From: a virus
DNA: 21,073 nucleotides
Virus record (IMG/VR): IMGVR_UViG_3300011113_000464
Span: 1 to 21,073 of that record
Reading direction: 5' to 3' (one strand)
A model generated the notes under the pieces. That model did no database searches, was not told where the DNA came from, and saw only the letters and a program-made list of their open reading frames with translations. Position numbers and translations under genes: made by a program. Shown here piece after piece: positions 5,100 to 15,437 of the stretch. Positions within the stretch are counted from its first letter, which is position 1, and each line of letters begins with the position of its first letter.

Positions 5100-5239
5100 G
5101 CGTCCCTGAGCTGATTCCGCCGCCTGACCCGAGGCGCACCCAGACTACCAAACAGGTCCTCGCAGAGGACCGCAGGACGCTTTCTAAGCTGCGGCAAGCC
5201 CGCAAAATTCAACAAGCCAGAGAGAGGACACGAAAATGA
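5096..5239 (+). CDS. Very small basic protein in the coupled chain
   Basis: A 47-residue protein beginning MSVPELIPPPDPRRTQ and ending ARKIQQARERTRK: a Pro-rich start and a strongly basic helical tail. Not recognised. It is supported by exact ATGA overlaps with both neighbours and by filling what would otherwise be a gap in the chain. The basic tail could bind nucleic acid (inference). Confidence 0.6.
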   Translation: MSVPELIPPPDPRRTQTTKQVLAEDRRTLSKLRQARKIQQARERTRK

Positions 5240-5865
5240 ATCCGATCAACATCAACCGAAAAACGCTATCAGAAATCATCTGGAAGCAGATTGAAGGCCG
5301 AGGGCGTGGGCTCGGCGACTTGTTCAGGAAGCTGGACGAGCTGCGCGAAGAGGCCGATTACAACACCGGCTCGCTGGATAAGCGTGACGTAGAGGACTTG
5401 CAGGATGTGGTCTTCCACTTTGGACCGAAAACGGTCGCGGAGGTGGGTACGTTCATTGGCCGGAGCACCATGGCGATAGCGCATTCGATGGACGAGGGCG
5501 GGACGATTTATACCTGCGATGTGTCCAACGACATCAAGCTGCCAGAAGTAACGGGCGGCAAGATTGTGCAGTATCCGAAGAAGTCATCCACCGATATGTT
5601 TGAGGACTTGTTGAAGCAAAAAGTTAAGGTGGACTTGTTTTATATCGACGGTCGATTGAGCCCGAAAGATATTAGGTTGATACAAGAACTAATGCACAAC
5701 AAGACGGTATTGGTTCTGGACGATTTCGAGGGCGTCGAAAAGGGCGTCGGCAACGCGATGCTGCTCATGCAGCACCTGACAGGCTACGCGCTGATTTATC
5801 CCCGGTGGAATGGTAAGACGGCGATTCTGATGCCGGGGTCGTTGCTGCAATTTACCGCGCAATGA
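5236..5865 (+). CDS. Class I SAM-dependent methyltransferase-like protein
   Basis: A 209-residue protein with a Rossmann methyltransferase pattern: glycine-rich motif VAEVGTFIGRST (67-78), acidic end of strand 2 (YTCDVSN, D95), and VDLFYIDGR (132-140) followed by VLVLDDFEG (158-166). This resembles the Methyltransf_24/O-methyltransferase group acting on small molecules or sugars rather than DNA methylases, as no DPPY or PC motif is present. It is the last gene of the coupled set from 4672 and starts at an ATGA overlap. The substrate is unknown. It may work with the sugar-modifying genes at 8424-12156. Confidence 0.75.
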   Translation: MNPININRKTLSEIIWKQIEGRGRGLGDLFRKLDELREEADYNTGSLDKRDVEDLQDVVFHFGPKTVAEVGTFIGRSTMAIAHSMDEGGTIYTCDVSNDIKLPEVTGGKIVQYPKKSSTDMFEDLLKQKVKVDLFYIDGRLSPKDIRLIQELMHNKTVLVLDDFEGVEKGVGNAMLLMQHLTGYALIYPRWNGKTAILMPGSLLQFTAQ

Positions 5866-5983
5866 GCGCGTAGAGCACCGAGGCCACGGCGGTCACGAAG
5901 ACGACCTTCGCAAACAGCATCAAAGTCTCTTCGGCCCTGCGGACCTTTTTATCGTAATAGTCCTGTGTCTCTCTATCGTTCAA
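5852..5983 (-). CDS. Putative small single-pass membrane protein
   Basis: A 43-residue reading frame: a charged N-terminus (NDRETQDYYDKKVRRAEET) then a hydrophobic helix (FAKVVFVTAVASVLYALIA) ending in Arg. It would start at a TTG overlapping the stop of the DUF5856-like gene (TTGA), in keeping with the 4-base overlaps elsewhere. No clear ribosome-binding site is seen, so expression would depend on coupling. The 3' end overlaps the convergent methyltransferase gene by 14 bases. Plausible but unproven. Confidence 0.45.
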   Translation of the reverse strand: MNDRETQDYYDKKVRRAEETLMLFAKVVFVTAVASVLYALIAR

Positions 5984-6342
5984 GACAAGAAGCGAAGCTT
6001 GTAGAGCGTAGAGAGATACAGGGCGACGATTTCATCGATGAGATTCTGAAGCGCCGTCTCTTCCCGGTCGCAAATTTCGTACCGGGCTTTCTCGATCTGG
6101 TCGAGCTGGTCTTCCAAAAACTCGACGATGTCCCGGTTCTTTTCGGCGCTCATTAGCGTCACCGGGCCGATGAGACCGTGCCGACCCATGTAGGCCTCTG
6201 CAAAGTCGTCCGTGAGCCCCGGCAGGCCCTCGTATAGCTTCTGGAGCGCCTTGTGGGCGCTGTACGAGCGACTGTTGAGATGAACGCTGTGCGCAACATC
6301 CCGACCGAGAAATAGGAGTCCGATGAAATCTGCGGCTTTCAT
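5980..6342 (-). CDS. DUF5856-like (Dps/ferritin-fold-like) phage protein
   Basis: A 120-residue all-helical protein starting MKAADFIGLLFLGRDVAHS, with SYSAHKALQKLYEGL, TDDFAEAYMGRHGL and a long C-terminal helix. This matches a phage family I recall as DUF5856, whose helical layout is ferritin/Dps-like. The His and acidic residues (H19, H30, E38, D45, E49) could form a metal site, but I cannot prove it. A promoter predicted at 6349-6377 would start transcription at about the ATG, and there is no Shine-Dalgarno site, so the mRNA may be leaderless. The gene runs against the surrounding rightward genes. Confidence 0.7.
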   Translation of the reverse strand: MKAADFIGLLFLGRDVAHSVHLNSRSYSAHKALQKLYEGLPGLTDDFAEAYMGRHGLIGPVTLMSAEKNRDIVEFLEDQLDQIEKARYEICDREETALQNLIDEIVALYLSTLYKLRFLS

Positions 6343-6482: not shown

Positions 6483-6510
6483 TTGACTGCTCAAGCGGCT
6501 TGTGTATAAT
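6483..6510 (+). promoter_or_regulatory. Strong sigma70 promoter with palindromic operator
   Basis: -35 TTGACT (6483-6488), 16-base spacer, -10 TATAAT (6505-6510, perfect consensus). The spacer contains the palindrome CAAGCGGCTTG (6492-6502), whose centre is 8 bases before the -10 box. The same palindrome sits at the same distance in the promoter at 6889. It drives the gene at 6572. Confidence 0.85.
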
Positions 6511-7948: not shown

Positions 7949-8042
7949 AAGATGGAAGGCTGACATCAACCGAGAGTGGCGACATGTACCGCCGCCGAAC
8001 TGGGCGTGCAGTCGCCGCAGAACTGGAGGGAATTACTGGTGA
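7923..8042 (+). CDS. Very small basic protein
   Basis: A 39-residue protein beginning MNWLRTLIKRWKADINREW, an amphipathic basic Trp-rich helix, and ending RTGGNYW. Not recognised. GGGAGG lies about 10 bases upstream, the start overlaps the previous gene, and its stop overlaps the next GTG (GTGA). Confidence 0.5.
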   Translation: MNWLRTLIKRWKADINREWRHVPPPNWACSRRRTGGNYW

Positions 8043-8221
8043 ATAAGTACGAATACGAATACGCACAAGACCGTTTGAACCGCGAGATTCTTGATCTCAA
8101 GTTTGAGATTGACCAGATGAAACTGGAAAACGAAAAGCAGTTGGATGCGATGTTTGTGGTCGAGATTGTGCTTTGCCTTGTTGTCTTTATAGCGGGCTAC
8201 GCGCTCGGGAGGTTCTGGTGA
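8039..8221 (+). CDS. Small coiled-coil protein with C-terminal membrane anchor
   Basis: A 60-residue protein. Residues 4-36 are a charged heptad-like helix (YEYAQDRLNREILDLKFEI), followed by one transmembrane helix (about 38-58: MFVVEIVLCLVVFIAGYALG) near the C-terminus. It probably sits in the inner membrane with the coiled coil in the cytoplasm. The GTG start has GGAGGG 8 bases upstream and overlaps the previous stop. Function unknown. It might anchor the sugar-modifying enzymes that follow at the membrane, which is inference from position. Confidence 0.65.
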   Translation: MNKYEYEYAQDRLNREILDLKFEIDQMKLENEKQLDAMFVVEIVLCLVVFIAGYALGRFW

Positions 8222-8427
8222 GAGTCGATCTTTGCGTCGAGGGCATGAACGCGCTTGTCCGCGAGGACTTGAAGGACACTCTTAAGAGTCTCAAAGCGGA
8301 CTTGAAGCGCCGCAAGGCAGGCGGGACGCTTGCGATCTTTCACATGGAGAAGCAGGACGACATTGACGAACTGCAAAAGCACGTTGATGCGTTCACGTTG
8401 GTGTTGCGCTATTACGGTGCAGAATGA
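8218..8427 (+). CDS. Small hypothetical protein
   Basis: A 69-residue helical, charged protein (LVREDLKDTLKSLKADLKRR and DDIDELQKHVDAFTLVLRYY). Not recognised; similar short helical proteins are common in phage accessory regions. It starts at a GTG overlapping the previous stop and ends in an ATGA overlap with the methyltransferase gene. Confidence 0.6.
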   Translation: MRVDLCVEGMNALVREDLKDTLKSLKADLKRRKAGGTLAIFHMEKQDDIDELQKHVDAFTLVLRYYGAE

Positions 8428-9131
8428 CCGACCCCAACGCTCGCGGGGGAGTACGCCGTTATCTCGACACCGTGCCGCCCGAGGAATACCTACCTGATAC
8501 GGGCGAGGTGAACCTTCTGGAGATGTCTCTGACGGGCCTTGCCGACTTATACGGCTCGGACAAGGGCACGATCAAACATCGTTACGCGGAAGTCTACGAG
8601 CCGCTGATTAACTTTCTCTGCGCGCAGCAAGGGGACAACCGACGCACGGCTCAACTTGTGATTGCCGAAGCCGGTGTAGCGTGTGGCGCGTCACTCCACA
8701 TGTGGTCGCGTTATCTCCCTGAGTCTACGATAGTGGGTTATGACGTTAGGGCCGAGTGCGCGAACCTGTGCAAGAACTTGGACAACGTGAAGATCGTAAT
8801 TGGCGATCCTGCCAAGATGCCCGAGCCCAAAGACGCGCCATTTGACCTCTTTATAGATGATGCAAGTCATATCTCCGAGCAGATTGTGGAGATGTTTAAG
8901 AACTGCTGGCCGTGGGTGCGAAGCGGCGGGTATTACATCATTGAAGACTTGGGCTGCACTTATAGCCCGTCTTATACCGAGCAATTCAGAGCGCACTTTG
9001 ACCCGGCTGCGGTGAATGACCGCAGAGCCATCCTGACGATGATGGATCACTTAATGAGGTGCGTTGACCTACGCGCTGAGATTGCAGAGATGAATTATTA
9101 CCCGCAACTTTTAGTGCTGAGGAAACTATGA
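8424..9131 (+). CDS. MycE/macrocin-type class I SAM methyltransferase
   Basis: A 235-residue protein. Visible are LYGSDKG (42-48), the RYAEVYEPL segment, the SAM motif AEAGVACGAS (81-90), GYDVR (105-109), DLFIDDASH (141-149) and GYYIIEDL (169-176). The SDKG..Y..VYE opening and the D-D-x-S-H metal-site motif are typical of metal-dependent sugar O-methyltransferases of the MycE/CmcI-like type that act on glycans or glycosides. The three glycosyltransferases just downstream make O-methylation of a transferred sugar a reasonable guess. It starts at an ATGA overlap and ends in another. Confidence 0.8.
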   Translation: MTDPNARGGVRRYLDTVPPEEYLPDTGEVNLLEMSLTGLADLYGSDKGTIKHRYAEVYEPLINFLCAQQGDNRRTAQLVIAEAGVACGASLHMWSRYLPESTIVGYDVRAECANLCKNLDNVKIVIGDPAKMPEPKDAPFDLFIDDASHISEQIVEMFKNCWPWVRSGGYYIIEDLGCTYSPSYTEQFRAHFDPAAVNDRRAILTMMDHLMRCVDLRAEIAEMNYYPQLLVLRKL

Positions 9132-9445
9132 GCGACAGTTTAACGCCGACGAACTTTGACTTTATCTCTCAACCGGAGACCCAAGAAGATGAAAAGGTCT
9201 GGTGCAAGATTAGCCCCGAAGGGGAGTTGGAACTTTTCGAGTGGGACTATGTGGAGAAGATTGCGCGTGAGTTTGACACTTTGGGCGCGGCGGCTAAAAA
9301 AAGCAACGCGCATGTGATTTGCAAACTTGCGGTATTGATTCGCAAGCAGACGTTAGAGCGGGCAGCGGAAGTGCTACTTAAGTATCACTCTGCACCGGCA
9401 GACGCTTCGACCATTATGCTCAGAGACCCTCTGGAGGACGCATGA
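9128..9445 (+). CDS. Hypothetical protein in the glycan cluster
   Basis: A 105-residue acidic protein (VWCKISPEGELELFEWDYVEKIA, here in two parts: VWCKISPEG and ELFEWDYVEKIA, then HVICKLAVLIRKQTLERAAE). Not recognised. GAGGAAA lies 6 bases before the ATG, and 4-base overlaps join it to the methyltransferase upstream and the glycosyltransferase downstream, so it is made together with them. Confidence 0.65.
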   Translation: MSDSLTPTNFDFISQPETQEDEKVWCKISPEGELELFEWDYVEKIAREFDTLGAAAKKSNAHVICKLAVLIRKQTLERAAEVLLKYHSAPADASTIMLRDPLEDA

Positions 9446-10113
9446 GTTTGTTTGTGTTCTTTCATGTAGGCGAGGACATTACGTTCCCGACTAAGATGGT
9501 GGCTTCGCTGAAGGCCGTGATGCCGGAGGCTGAAGTCATTATGTGCACCGACGATGCCACGCCGGAAGTGCCCGGCGTCTCGGAGCGTAAGATTTCCCAA
9601 GGCGACGTTAAGCAGATTATGTACTGGCGCACCCGTGCATTTGCGGAGGCGAAGATTATGCGCCCTGCGATGTATATCGACACCGATATGCTTTTTATGT
9701 TGCCCGTCAATCCGGCTGCGATTCTGGATGACCGGGAGATCGTGTTCTGCCGTCGCTCATTTGACCGTGATGTAGGGTTCAACGGTGGGCAGCGGGGCGG
9801 GGTGTTCAAGCAATACCATGGCATCCCCTTGGGCACGTTATATCCGTACTTGGGCTGCGCGACGATCACGAAGAACTATCACGCATGGAAGGGGCTTGCG
9901 ATCCTGATGGGCTTTATGAACGCCAACTTCAAGCAATGGTATGGCGATCAGGAGGCGCTCAAAGTGTACTCACACATGCTCTACCCTGAACTGGTGGGCG
10001 AGATACACGAGATGGATTACGCCTGCCTGCCAGACCGGATGACCGAGGGCTACGTGCCGTACATCCTGCACTACAAAGGCCCCGCCCGTAAGGAGGCTTT
10101 CTTAAATGCTTAG
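9442..10113 (+). CDS. GT-A glycosyltransferase-like protein 1
   Basis: A 223-residue protein with a nucleotide-sugar transferase pattern. The N-terminal strand-helix (FVFFHVGEDI, then AEVIMCTDDATP) is followed by the metal-binding DxD in MYIDTDMLF (D80-T81-D82) and a C-terminal HYKGPARK resembling the HxxGxxK end of GT8-like enzymes. It would transfer a sugar from a nucleotide donor in the cytoplasm. GGAGGA precedes the ATG. It has the same length and DxD position as the next gene, so the two may be diverged tandem copies. The donor and acceptor are unknown. Confidence 0.75.
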   Translation: MSLFVFFHVGEDITFPTKMVASLKAVMPEAEVIMCTDDATPEVPGVSERKISQGDVKQIMYWRTRAFAEAKIMRPAMYIDTDMLFMLPVNPAAILDDREIVFCRRSFDRDVGFNGGQRGGVFKQYHGIPLGTLYPYLGCATITKNYHAWKGLAILMGFMNANFKQWYGDQEALKVYSHMLYPELVGEIHEMDYACLPDRMTEGYVPYILHYKGPARKEAFLNA

Positions 10114-10777
10114 AGTGTTTGTTGGGTGGGATAGCCGCGAGGACGTTGCCTATCAGGTATGCGCTCACTCGCTCAAACTGCACTCATCTATCCCGTTAGA
10201 GATTGTCCCGATAAAGCAGAGCGAGCTGCGCGAACAGGGCATTTATTGGCGTCCGGTCGATGCGCTCGCGTCTACGGAGTTCAGCCTCACGCGGTTTCTG
10301 ACTCCATATCTCGCGGGGTATTCCGGCTGGGCCTTGTTTTGCGATTGCGATTTTCTTTTCCGGGGGGACATTGCGACTTTGCTTGACTACGCCCATGGGG
10401 CAAAAGCGTGCTTGGTAGTACCGCACGATTACAGGCCGACCGAAACGGTCAAAATGAATAACCAACCTCAGCACAACTACCCCCGCAAAAACTGGTCGAG
10501 TTTCATGTTCATCAACTGTGAGCATGAACAAGTTAAGCGGCTCACGCCAGAACTGGTCAACGTCGCCACACCCGCGTATCTTCACAGGTTTGAGTGGCTG
10601 ACCGACGATGTAATCGGACACTTGCCGATTGCGTATAACTATCTAGAAGGTTGGTACACCCGAGATCAATGCCCGAACCCGATTGGCGTACACATGACGC
10701 GAGGCGGTCCATGGTTTAAAGATTGGACTGAGGTGGAGTACGGGCGCGAATGGATGGCAGTAGCGGCAACAATATGA
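10106..10777 (+). CDS. GT-A glycosyltransferase-like protein 2 (GT8-like)
   Basis: A 223-residue protein with RVFVGWDSRED (3-13), the DxD motif in WALFCDCDFLF (D80-C81-D82), NYPRKNWSSFMFINC in the middle and HMTRGGPWF near the C-terminus, which fits a GT8-like HxxG..PW end. AAGGAGG lies 9 bases before the ATG, the best ribosome-binding site in this cluster, so it may be made at a high level. It overlaps its upstream partner by 8 bases. Proteins of this type are found in phages and in surface polysaccharide loci. Confidence 0.8.
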   Translation: MLRVFVGWDSREDVAYQVCAHSLKLHSSIPLEIVPIKQSELREQGIYWRPVDALASTEFSLTRFLTPYLAGYSGWALFCDCDFLFRGDIATLLDYAHGAKACLVVPHDYRPTETVKMNNQPQHNYPRKNWSSFMFINCEHEQVKRLTPELVNVATPAYLHRFEWLTDDVIGHLPIAYNYLEGWYTRDQCPNPIGVHMTRGGPWFKDWTEVEYGREWMAVAATI

Positions 10778-12156
10778 GCAAGTACGCAAAAGCTATTAAA
10801 AGGTTAGAGGCAGCGTTTCAAGCCGGGAAGTACGGCGAGGCGATGGATTTATGTAACTACGCAATCTCCCTCGCGCCGAAGGAAATTATTCCCTACCGGG
10901 CTAAAGCGCGGCTTTTGCAGATTGAGCGCAACTTTGTCGAGGCCGAGCGGTATTACGATGCCGCAGAACGCCGGGGCAAATTAGATGCCGATGACTTTGT
11001 AAACCGGGGCATTGTGAAGGGCGAACTGCAAAAGTACGACTCTGCGATTGAGGACTTTACGAAGGCGCTAGAGATCAATCCCAAGTACGGCCATGCACTT
11101 GTTCAGCGTGGTGCATGCAATTGGGAGATGCGCCGTTGGGATGCCGCGCAGAAGGACTTTGAGAAGGCGAATGAAATTGACCCGAGTAACGCGAATTCAA
11201 ATTGGATTCTGGGGCTGCTTGCCTTGCAACGAAATGATTTTAAGACGGGCTGGCCCCTATATGAAAGGCGGTGGAATAGCGAGCGGTTTAAGAGCAGGCC
11301 GCTACAAAGTAACAAGCCGCAATGGAATCTAGGGGCCGAGCAGAAGTCTGTGCTGGTATGGGGCGAGCAGGGGATTGGCGATCAGATTATTTACGCTTCC
11401 ATGCTCCCGGCAATTCGCAAGAACGCCGACCGCGTAACTGCCATGGTAGACCCACGATTGGTGACGATCTTTAACCGGTCGATGCCAGAGGTCACGTTTA
11501 TCTCGCATCTCGAGAAAGTCCCGTCTGATCTGCATGACTCGCACATTCCGTTTGCGAGCGTGGGCCGGTGCTTTATCCACGAGCTGAAGGACATTCACGT
11601 ACACGTTGCCCGCAAGTATCTAAAGGCAGACCCGGAGCTCGTGGAGAAGTACCGCGCAGAGACCGGGTTCACCAAGGACAAGTTAACGGTCGGCATCTCA
11701 TGGGCGTCGAGCGCCATCAAGATCGGGCCGCATAAGTCGGTCAAGCTGCAAGAGATGCTGCCTTTCTTGAAGGATGAGTATCAGATTTTGAACCTGCAAT
11801 ATGGCAGCAGCCGAGATGCCGTGGAGGAATTCAACCGAGCGCATGGTACGAACATCGTGACGACGGGCGTGGACTTGGTGAAAGACTTTGAGGGACTCGC
11901 TGCGCTTTGCTCGCTCTGCGATGTCATCGTTGCCGTGAGTAGCTCGACCGTGCATCTGGCCGGGGCCTTGGGTTGTAAGGTGCTACTGATGGATGCCAAC
12001 AAGCTCTGGTATTGGGGCAACAAGGATGGCGACATGAGCGCGTGGTATCCGAGCATTAAGATTTTCTCACGCGACAATATGATTGCGCCGTGGGACAACG
12101 TAGTCGAAGCCGTCACAAAAGAACTGGAGGGGATGGAGCATGATCGACAACATTAG
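10774..12156 (+). CDS. TPR-domain GT-B glycosyltransferase
   Basis: About 460 residues from the ATG at 10774, preferred over 10750 because it makes an ATGA overlap with the preceding stop. Residues up to about 150 are tetratricopeptide repeats (for example KYDSAIEDFTKALEINP and RWDAAQKDFEKANEIDP). The C-terminal half looks like a GT9/heptosyltransferase-type GT-B fold: VLVWGEQGIGDQIIYASM, then VSSSTVHLAGALG in the donor-binding region and LWYWGNKDGDMSAWYPS. TPR-GT fusions commonly modify proteins or surface glycans. It is the last large gene of the glycan cluster. Confidence 0.8.
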   Translation: MSKYAKAIKRLEAAFQAGKYGEAMDLCNYAISLAPKEIIPYRAKARLLQIERNFVEAERYYDAAERRGKLDADDFVNRGIVKGELQKYDSAIEDFTKALEINPKYGHALVQRGACNWEMRRWDAAQKDFEKANEIDPSNANSNWILGLLALQRNDFKTGWPLYERRWNSERFKSRPLQSNKPQWNLGAEQKSVLVWGEQGIGDQIIYASMLPAIRKNADRVTAMVDPRLVTIFNRSMPEVTFISHLEKVPSDLHDSHIPFASVGRCFIHELKDIHVHVARKYLKADPELVEKYRAETGFTKDKLTVGISWASSAIKIGPHKSVKLQEMLPFLKDEYQILNLQYGSSRDAVEEFNRAHGTNIVTTGVDLVKDFEGLAALCSLCDVIVAVSSSTVHLAGALGCKVLLMDANKLWYWGNKDGDMSAWYPSIKIFSRDNMIAPWDNVVEAVTKELEGMEHDRQH

Positions 12157-12772: not shown

Positions 12773-12810
12773 CCCCGGAGTTGAGAGCTTTCTCCTCCGG
12801 GGACTTTTTT
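12773..12810 (+). terminator. Intrinsic terminator ending the rightward middle operon
   Basis: CCCCGGAG (12773-12780) pairs perfectly with CTCCGGGG (12795-12802) around a 14-base loop and is followed by ACTTTTTT. It ends rightward transcription just before the convergent PrimPol-helicase gene, whose stop codon overlaps the T tract. Confidence 0.85.
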
Positions 12811-15067
12811 ACCTGTAACGCACCCGATAGATTCTGCGCTCGCGCCCAGCGCCGGGGTTCTTAACGACTTCTTCCAAGATGTCGCCCGACTCCACGAGGG
12901 TCTGCAAGATTTCGTTTCGGTCGCGAGCTTTCATGCCCTGACACGCTTTCGCGAGCTGGGTGCCGTTCATGCCTTCAGCGCCAGAATTACGGATCAGATT
13001 CAGTATCTTCTTGTGCGCAGCTTCAATATCGTTCTCGGCCACCTCGCGGTAAAGCAAGTCGGCGGTATAGCAGAATGACCACTTCGCAAGGTCATGCGAC
13101 ATCTGAAAGATTTCGCCGGTAACGACCGGAGCGCAGGGGTCTCGGGCAATCGCTTCAATCATGGCGATCTTGAGCACAATCTCGGAGAACCGCACCCAGA
13201 GCGCATCGTCGCCACGGGACTGCTGAAGCTGCCAGTCTTTGGTCTGGCTGTACATCTCAAACGCAGTGCCTTCCCAGTCAACGATAACGGGGGCGACCAC
13301 CGAGTTAGGCAGCGTTGGGATGTTGGTGAGATTGCCAGCTCCGTGCGGGATGACCGATACAGAGTCGAGAATGTCTTTGACGATATCTTCTGGCGGCGGC
13401 TGAAGCTCTGGGAGCTGCGCGTTGGGATACTCCTCGAAAGGCGGCACGAGCAGAATGCGCGAGAGCGTACCGTTGTCCACCATGTCATGGTTGAGCGCCG
13501 GTATCAGCGTGCGCGGCGTTGTGGTGCCAAAGAAGTTGAAGTTAGGCTGGTTGATGTCGTACCGCTGCCGGTCGCGAGAGTCGGCGTATTCCTGCCCGTG
13601 GTAGATACCGCTGCTGCTGGAGTACACCTCAAGCAAAGTCTTGATGATGTCGCGCTGGTGGCTTGCAGCGTTCCGAGCCGTCAGGCTTTGCAAGTAGAGC
13701 CCCATCTCGTCAAGGTGCGAGATACGCGAAGGGTAATCAAACAGCGTGCGAAGGATCGCCACGCCGGAGCTGAAGCGGTCGCCGCAGATGACTTGATTCA
13801 AGCCGGTCTTGATGAGCAGCTCCTTGATGCGCTGACGGCTGTGATCTTTACCGGCACCGGGCTTGGCTACGGCAATCGAAAACAGATTGCAGCGAGTGTT
13901 GATTTGCGACATGGCATACCGACGCCCGAAGAGAGCGCCGAACATGCAGAGCGTATTCATCAGCGCGAAGGTCGGCTGGGGCTGCTGAGCGGTGGCGTTA
14001 ATCCATCGAGTCACGCGCCCCACAAGCGATGGGCTTTTGAACCAATCGTGCGGGAAGTTCTCGCGAGTGCTTTTCGGATACGACTTTTTGTTTTCCTTCA
14101 GCGAGCTGAGATCGACTTCGATAGCACGCGCCTTCTGCGGGTTCAGGCTCAGCGACGGAGGCGGTACCCAGCCGTTCTGCTGCGCGTGGAAGTAAAGCGA
14201 CCCGGCACCAATCTTGGTGGGCGGCGACTTGGCGTAGTGGTCCCAGCGTTGCCGGGTTTCGATCTCGTTGTACTTGCCGGAGGCGCGAGACCACTGGTCG
14301 AAGATATGAAACCCCTTCGCTTCGGTCGCGCAGTAGATGGCCATGCCGATGCGGTTCCAGTCGTCCCACGAGAGGTCTGGATTCGGCACGTACCGAAGGG
14401 CGTCCTCGACGGCAGCGTAGGTGCCCACAAGTCCATCGTAAGAGGTCTTAGCGTCTCTGTCGGGGATGACGACTTGACCCTTCGGCGCAAGGGTGCGTTT
14501 ACGCAATTGGGGCGGTAATGCCTTATAAGCAGCCTCAGCAGCCTCCAGCACCTGCTCACGGGTCACAAGCGGCAGGCTCTCAAAAGGCATCTCATGCGGC
14601 CCTGAGAGCGGCCACGTATAGGGGGCATTCGTCTCAGGGTGAATGGCGTAAGCAACAAACTGCTGCCCGATGCCGAGGACTTCGATGGGGTGCAGGGAAA
14701 GCTTTGTGAAGGGCTCTGCCGTGCGGTACAGGTACAGGGCTTTCGGAGGCTTACCGATACGGATCAGGTCCGTCTGGCCGAGCTTCTCCTGAAAGACGTT
14801 CCCGACCTCAACGGCCACCTGTTGGTCGAGCACATCGATATCGACCGCGACCACGTTGCCCGTCAGGATGCCAACGCCGCACCCCGGCCACTTCGACCAG
14901 ATGTCTACGTGAAACGGTTGCGCGTCGATTTCCGTCCAGCGAGCGAGATCGCCCCACTTGTTGCCATCGTAGCGACCGGGGCGCTTGGTCCCCGGCATGA
15001 TGGGAATGATGCGATAGCCCGCGTCAACGAGCTTCGCACCATATTGTTCCATGAAGTTTTCAGACAT
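12809..15067 (-). CDS. Bifunctional primase-polymerase / helicase (PrimPol - PriCT-2 - P-loop ATPase)
   Basis: About 752 residues. The N-terminal PrimPol domain has VVAVDIDVLD (catalytic acidic pair at 76 and 78), RIGKPPKALYLYR (103-115) and FVAYAIHPET (137-146). A PriCT-2-like region follows at about 218-300 (LSWDDWNRIGMAIY, IFDQWSR, SLYFHAQQNGW). The ATPase part has Walker A PGAGKDHS (403-410), Walker B SHLDE (450-454) and the sensor-like NFNFFGTTTP (508-517). A winged-helix-like tail (GMNGTQLAKACQG) ends the protein. It should prime and unwind at the phage origin. The start at 15067 gives an 8-base overlap with rusA; 15115 would overlap by 56 bases. Confidence 0.9.
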   Translation of the reverse strand: MSENFMEQYGAKLVDAGYRIIPIMPGTKRPGRYDGNKWGDLARWTEIDAQPFHVDIWSKWPGCGVGILTGNVVAVDIDVLDQQVAVEVGNVFQEKLGQTDLIRIGKPPKALYLYRTAEPFTKLSLHPIEVLGIGQQFVAYAIHPETNAPYTWPLSGPHEMPFESLPLVTREQVLEAAEAAYKALPPQLRKRTLAPKGQVVIPDRDAKTSYDGLVGTYAAVEDALRYVPNPDLSWDDWNRIGMAIYCATEAKGFHIFDQWSRASGKYNEIETRQRWDHYAKSPPTKIGAGSLYFHAQQNGWVPPPSLSLNPQKARAIEVDLSSLKENKKSYPKSTRENFPHDWFKSPSLVGRVTRWINATAQQPQPTFALMNTLCMFGALFGRRYAMSQINTRCNLFSIAVAKPGAGKDHSRQRIKELLIKTGLNQVICGDRFSSGVAILRTLFDYPSRISHLDEMGLYLQSLTARNAASHQRDIIKTLLEVYSSSSGIYHGQEYADSRDRQRYDINQPNFNFFGTTTPRTLIPALNHDMVDNGTLSRILLVPPFEEYPNAQLPELQPPPEDIVKDILDSVSVIPHGAGNLTNIPTLPNSVVAPVIVDWEGTAFEMYSQTKDWQLQQSRGDDALWVRFSEIVLKIAMIEAIARDPCAPVVTGEIFQMSHDLAKWSFCYTADLLYREVAENDIEAAHKKILNLIRNSGAEGMNGTQLAKACQGMKARDRNEILQTLVESGDILEEVVKNPGAGRERRIYRVRYR

Positions 15068-15437
15068 TTTCGACTTGAACCTCAACTCGTTCTTCGCCGT
15101 ATTCTTTGGAGGCAACGAGTTGACACACCACAGCGTCGTCGCTGAATACGGTGCCGTTCAAGCCGTCGAGGATTGCCTTGACGATGTTGTCAAGATCCGG
15201 ACGCGAGATGTGCCATCCTGTTTTTTTGCTGTGCTGAAAGTACGCTTTGATCGTGACCTTCACCGGCCCTTCCAGCATAGTCTTTCCAAACATAGCGACT
15301 TGCGCGAGCGTTTGAACGCCCTGCTCGTAGAGTTTCGTTTCTTGCGGCGTATACGTAACAACGCCACCTTTCTTGGTTCTGCCAAAGCGCGGACGAGCTT
15401 TGCCTACGGGCTTGCCGTAGATGACGAGATCAATCAT
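15060..15437 (-). CDS. rusA: RusA-family Holliday junction resolvase
   Basis: A 125-residue protein close to the usual RusA length. The N-terminal strand YGKPVGKARPRF (7-18) and the catalytic region RPDLDNIVKAILDGLNG (79-95) with FSDDAVV (98-104) supply the conserved acidic residues D81, D83, D91 and D100/D101 and K87. It would cut four-way DNA junctions made during replication and recombination, resolving branches before packaging. It joins the HTH gene upstream by an ATGA overlap and the PrimPol gene downstream by 8 bases. Confidence 0.9.
   Translation of the reverse strand: MIDLVIYGKPVGKARPRFGRTKKGGVVTYTPQETKLYEQGVQTLAQVAMFGKTMLEGPVKVTIKAYFQHSKKTGWHISRPDLDNIVKAILDGLNGTVFSDDAVVCQLVASKEYGEERVEVQVENV

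Follow-up and report, generated by a model that had tools for sequence, protein, structure and literature searches.

What does a tailed phage do with a closely packed run of glycosyltransferase and methyltransferase genes? This question is raised by the window, here the whole 21,073-base virus record IMGVR_UViG_3300011113_000464. Since the window also encodes a terminase-small-like protein, DNA primase, RusA, Sak4, an SSB-like protein, a Cas4-type exonuclease and a helicase, we regard it as a fragment of a tailed-phage genome. Near-identical and related contigs reach about 55-60 kb and contain portal, tape-measure, tail-fibre and major-head matches. The carriers of the cassette are a group of uncultured freshwater phages. 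The genes concerned are:

5236..5865, plus strand: MT1, PF13578 methyltransferase of 209 aa, an outlying partner of the cassette
7976..8221, plus strand: CC, short coiled-coil protein with a C-terminal membrane segment, the first coupled gene
8218..8427, plus strand: p69, GTG start, small conserved protein of unassigned role
8424..9131, plus strand: MT2, putative MycE/TylE-type Mg-dependent sugar O-methyltransferase, 235 aa
9128..9445, plus strand: U105, phage-specific protein of 105 aa, a possible adaptor
9442..10113, plus strand: GT1, predicted GT-A glycosyltransferase, 223 aa
10106..10777, plus strand: GT2, predicted GT-A (GT8-like) glycosyltransferase, 223 aa
10774..12156, plus strand: TPR-GT, predicted N-terminal TPR domain and GT-B domain, with an in-frame upstream ATG at 10750

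A sequence-only reading of this DNA had named five open reading frames, from MT2 to TPR-GT, and all five are present with the boundaries listed above. It had also described them as joined by overlaps of 4 or 8 bases. MT2/U105 and U105/GT1 share ATGA (4 bases), GT1/GT2 share ATGCTTAG (8 bases) and GT2/TPR-GT again share ATGA (4 bases), so that the description holds at all junctions if TPR-GT starts at 10774; with the start at 10750 the last overlap is 28 bases. The coupled run begins upstream of MT2, with CC, then p69 (GTGA at 8218) and then MT2 (ATGA at 8424). The membrane-anchored coiled-coil gene noted upstream is real (7976-8221), and p69, which had not been named before, intervenes between it and MT2, overlapping both neighbors by 4 bases. 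Many relatives of p69 are 67-72 aa long. CC is the only protein of the run with a clear membrane segment; its C-terminal hydrophobic segment reaches a Kyte-Doolittle value of 2.6, and a hydrophobic C-terminus is preserved in the relatives. The true start of CC may lie further in than 7976.

The description of TPR-GT as a TPR-GT-B enzyme was substantiated. A TPR domain was recognized in 22/22 family members and a weak GT9-like match in 3/22, and full-length bacterial relatives carry the PLSDB name TPR-containing glycosyltransferase. Conserved motifs are GEQGxGD and SSxTVHxAG. Judged by these matches, TPR-GT is predicted to combine a TPR N-terminus with a GT-B C-terminus, an architecture like that of FlmG from Caulobacter crescentus. 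FlmG binds flagellin through its TPR half and, in the cytoplasm, glycosylates it through its GT-B half (PMC7591256), and the same architecture in TPR-GT supports a protein acceptor. Unlike FlmG, TPR-GT is phage-borne and shorter, and it is inherited together with two GT-A enzymes and with sugar methyltransferases. Related TPR-GTs are abundant in Alphaproteobacteria and Azospirillum. A few bacterial GT2 genes adjoin a TPR-GT; in three genomes, chosen for having such a neighbor and not for its rank, the neighbor is the genome's best TPR-GT match. As a separate observation, a Roseobacter sp. locus (L210:6682-10651) that is apparently a prophage carries a TPR-GT, a GT2 and a sulfotransferase-like gene close to lysis and tail genes.

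Both remaining glycosyltransferases keep the residues expected of a GT-A active site, which had been proposed from their DxD motifs. In GT1, D80-T-D82 and the C-terminal H210 are invariant in an alignment of 20 sequences. GT1 has no family match in Pfam, PHROG or NCBIfam, and its alignment gives only chance-level Pfam matches. A structure search with its model (pLDDT 95) gave matches to GT6 galactosyltransferases and to glycogenin (E about 1e-8 to 1e-7, TM about 0.5-0.63), and on the basis of this predicted fold we assign GT1 to the GT-A glycosyltransferases. In GT2, D80-x-D82 and H196 are invariant among 27 sequences; 13/27 family members match the Glyco_transf_8 profile (best 4.9e-9), whereas the GT2 of the window does not. 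GT2 is therefore best described as a putative GT-A, GT8-like enzyme. The two had been called twins. This did not stand: each retains its invariant DxD and C-terminal histidine, but they are not alignable by profile (hhalign probability 2%), and consequently share a fold class at most. For the same reason we rejected the idea that they are duplicates of each other.

The distribution of the two enzymes also differs. A profile search found GT2 in 44/385 alphaproteobacterial genomes, and in the same 385 genomes GT1 yielded one marginal partial match only. Alphaproteobacterial glycosyltransferases that are 53-60% identical to GT2 give a hint, from sequence similarity, that the host belongs to the Alphaproteobacteria. 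Going by gene names read from the sequences, the GT2 relative adjoins a kdtA-like gene in several Rhodobacteraceae, and Kdo and rhamnose genes in Novosphingobium. Phages with a GT2 relative include those of Caulobacter, cyanobacteria, Pelagibacter and Stenotrophomonas, and the gene is often found near methyltransferases or other glycosyltransferases. A spring phage of 44 kb encodes a GT2 relative together with a methyltransferase and a TPR-GT, all three placed between its major capsid and stabilization genes.

MT2 had been called MycE-like, and profile matches to MycE (3ssm, E=2.3e-21) and to demethylmacrocin O-methyltransferase (8ia9, 4.2e-20) agree with this. Asp275, His278 and Asp304 of MycE/ThnM1 are active-site and Mg-binding residues (PMC9275233); D146, H149 and D175 of MT2 have identical spacing and are invariant in the MT2 family. 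MT2 thus appears to be a sugar O-methyltransferase of the MycE/TylE type. Compared with MycE/TylE and TylF of macrolide biosynthesis, the phage enzyme is shorter, and its substrate is presumably a glycan instead of a macrolide. MT2 is absent from 12/32 primase-selected loci. Two loci (L101 and L042) have a TylF-like methyltransferase in its place, and one (L022) has both. MT2 relatives are also present in mycobacteriophage prophages, some of them adjoining glycosyltransferases. A PADLOC match of MT2 to mad2 (E=1.6e-12) covers only part of the model, and a defence role was set aside. The further methyltransferase noted at 5236 was likewise confirmed: MT1 (5236-5865) matches PF13578 above the Pfam cutoff. 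In most loci the cassette follows downstream of MT1, and in the L118 lineage MT1 directly adjoins the TPR-GT fusion. In many relatives MT1 is adjoined by a gene that in the window lies at 5980-6342 on the minus strand and matches DUF5856, a PHROG "starvation-inducible transcriptional regulator" (PF19174, phrog_858).

The 105-residue protein was left without assignment by the earlier reading, and rightly so. U105 matches no known family in Pfam, PHROG or NCBIfam, a fold search with its model (pLDDT 79) gave no significant match, and one marginal partial match was obtained in the 385 alphaproteobacterial genomes. It does have invariant residues, W25-C26-x-I28 in the alignment, and a role as adaptor is possible.

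Do these genes belong together? U105, GT1, GT2 and TPR-GT occur together on one strand in 54 distinct viral loci, in three gene orders. Among primase-selected loci with enough flank, GT2, TPR-GT and U105 are present in 32/32 and GT1 in 31/32. None of the four core genes was found in 12 long MCP-selected contigs (39-59 kb, capsid 83-88% identical), some of which may be incomplete; this search had no internal positive, and the identical profiles do find GT2 and TPR-GT in other records. Since replication genes differ in the four MCP-selected contigs that were mapped, the cassette-minus contigs represent a broader sister group and not isogenic controls, and we rejected them for a same-locus comparison. 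When the DNA of the cassette was searched against the phage collection, no match was returned. Co-occurrence in other phages, on which the proposal of a gene cluster had depended, proved to be nearly all-or-none, with the same genes together across many contigs. Pairwise pN/pS is 0.06-0.29 for the five cassette genes and up to 0.43 for MT1, indicating purifying selection. Given a gene order repeated across dozens of loci, purifying selection on the genes, and catalytic residues with little or no variation, the cassette is not a chance assembly. The putative major capsid protein (L133:6721-7635 and relatives) is 85-88% identical among phages with only 51-61% identity in the portal and very different replication genes. 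Its conservation is unusual, and the viral collection contains at least 599 stretches related to it.

In five loci (L117-L121) TPR-GT and GT1 are fused into one polypeptide. Therefore both probably act on one product, and the fusion is the best evidence for this. The virion proteins of the fused lineage are distantly related (capsid 40%, portal 34%), and its replication module is different and includes a DNA polymerase. Other loci vary the tailoring genes. One of them (L012) has, in place of GT1, a hexapeptide acetyltransferase, a DegT-type aminotransferase and a 279-aa open reading frame without Pfam match; acetyltransferases and DegT-type aminotransferases are what acetamido-deoxysugar synthesis usually employs. 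A core of TPR-GT, GT2 and U105 that stays constant while the tailoring genes around it are exchanged would fit diversifying pressure on the outer part of the glycan. A further locus has an additional gene between GT2 and TPR-GT, coding for a D12-class DNA adenine methyltransferase (L014:814-1539).

We propose that the cassette is a self-contained module for protein O-glycosylation and sugar capping, with a phage virion protein as the most likely acceptor, and consider the chances of this reading evenly balanced. The TPR domain of TPR-GT would bind a cytoplasmic protein acceptor and the GT-B domain would attach the first sugar, as FlmG does with flagellin. GT1 and GT2 may then lengthen the chain from host nucleotide sugars, and MT2, together with MT1 or with a TylF-like enzyme in relatives, would O-methylate sugar hydroxyls as a cap. 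The product would be a short, methyl-capped sugar chain. The data show the enzyme families, the conserved active sites, the co-inheritance, the fusion and the exchange of tailoring genes; that the acceptor is a protein, that the steps follow in this order and that the virion is the target is what we infer here. The fusion, the co-inheritance, the MycE residues, the TylF-like and L012 swaps, the GT2/TPR-GT pair in the capsid region of the spring phage and the neighbors of MT2 in mycobacteriophages all support this explanation. No obvious membrane anchors are present in the cassette enzymes, the highest hydrophobicity peak (1.9) falling inside the GT-B domain. Since the enzymes look soluble and cytoplasmic, and virions assemble in the cytoplasm, a virion protein is the most likely acceptor. 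By analogy to FlmG we favor a protein over other acceptors; sequence leaves the choice between viral protein, host protein and LPS undecided. A more specific version, that a FlmG-like phage system with U105 builds a methyl-capped oligosaccharide on its own virion proteins across a widespread freshwater lineage, the cap varying by exchange of MycE/TylF or amino-sugar genes, is put forward tentatively and falls somewhat short of even chances.

Several observations weaken this explanation. The strongest counter-evidence comes from the cellular relatives of GT2, which adjoin kdtA-like and Kdo genes and hence stand in an LPS context. In addition, the coupled, membrane-anchored CC may indicate a membrane or surface role, the cassette here adjoins replication genes and not virion genes, TPR domains alone do not prove a protein acceptor, and the likeness to FlmG is one of architecture, not of direct alignment. 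The main rival is therefore remodelling of the host surface, in which methylated sugars would be added onto LPS core, O-antigen or capsule and block superinfection or aid release. The GT2 relatives and the CC gene within the operon speak for it, and glycosyltransferase/O-methyltransferase clusters of cyanophages have been interpreted likewise (PMC7824862). However, no flippase, polymerase or membrane glycosyltransferase was found in the cassette, and the membrane flippase and membrane glycosyltransferase that are hallmarks of serotype conversion (gtr) were absent from a Pfam scan of the cassette proteins. A TPR domain is more typical of enzymes with protein acceptors, and in relatives GT1 is fused to just this enzyme. 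We regard surface remodelling as possible but rather unlikely.

A protein acceptor could also belong to the host, if flagellin, pilin or another surface appendage were glycosylated to exclude competing phages. FlmG itself modifies flagellin (PMC7591256), and the abundance of TPR-GTs in Alphaproteobacteria and Azospirillum, with the best match of three genomes beside a GT2 relative, would agree with this. No flagellin was recognized beside the examined bacterial GT2/TPR-GT pairs, however, and we consider a host protein improbable. Finally, phage DNA could be the acceptor, with the glycosyltransferases adding sugar to a hydroxylated base. Hypermodification of DNA by phage glycosyltransferases is known (Pyle 2024, cited in PMC12619734), and 2OG-Fe(II) oxygenases are encoded in the L118 lineage. 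But MycE-type methyltransferases act on small-molecule sugars, and no oxygenase or base-modifying gene was recognized in the window. The sequence-only reading had already thought DNA glycosylation less likely for want of a base hypermodification gene, and its judgement extends beyond the window: a thymidylate-synthase-type hydroxymethylase (PF00303) is absent from nine related contigs, which may be incomplete, and this makes glycosylation of DNA very unlikely.

Clusters of glycosyltransferase and methyltransferase genes and virion glycosylation are already known from phages (PMC7824862, PMC12619734), and the cassette combines known parts anew. The literature searched, which took in few subscription journals, held no description of the TPR-GT/U105/GT-A/MycE combination. 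The capsular polysaccharide clusters of jumbo cyanophages share with it several glycosyltransferases and O-methyltransferases, and sugar-nucleotide genes in variants, but the cassette is much smaller, has TPR-GT and U105, and its proposed target differs. Virion glycosylation is also reported for mycobacteriophages (Che8 gp110, Corndog gp38, Myrna; Freeman 2023). The glycosyltransferases are phage-encoded in both cases and MT2 relatives occur in mycobacteriophages, some beside glycosyltransferases, whereas the literature consulted mentions no TPR-GT for that system and the phage backbone is unrelated. If the virion is the target, O-glycosylation of particle proteins would reach common aquatic phages, beyond actinobacteriophages. 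Aquatic phages meet no antibodies, and the modification would then serve another purpose, such as attachment, protection from host or grazers, or masking. Fusion and joint inheritance make the module testable as one unit, and U105, conserved but without known function, stands out as a candidate new component.

Some further features of the window were recorded. In relatives of the primase (12809-15115, minus strand) in-frame TAG codons had suggested stop-codon recoding, which we rejected: the TAGs probably come from an over-extended N-terminus, as in the one case inspected (G002), where translation is likely to begin at an internal ATG near 15067. No tRNA genes were found in the window or in five scanned contigs. 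A strong sigma-70-like promoter match (11/12) lies at 6483-6510 on the plus strand, upstream of the gene run into the cassette, in a scan whose overall counts were no better than chance. An imperfect, GCC-AGCC-rich tandem repeat array occupies 2102-2226. An exact 28-nt direct repeat, AAACTACGGAACCCCAAACGATGCAAAC, occurs at 2307-2334 and 2533-2560 with an ATG within each copy, which suggests that two open reading frames have a leader and start site that arose by duplication.
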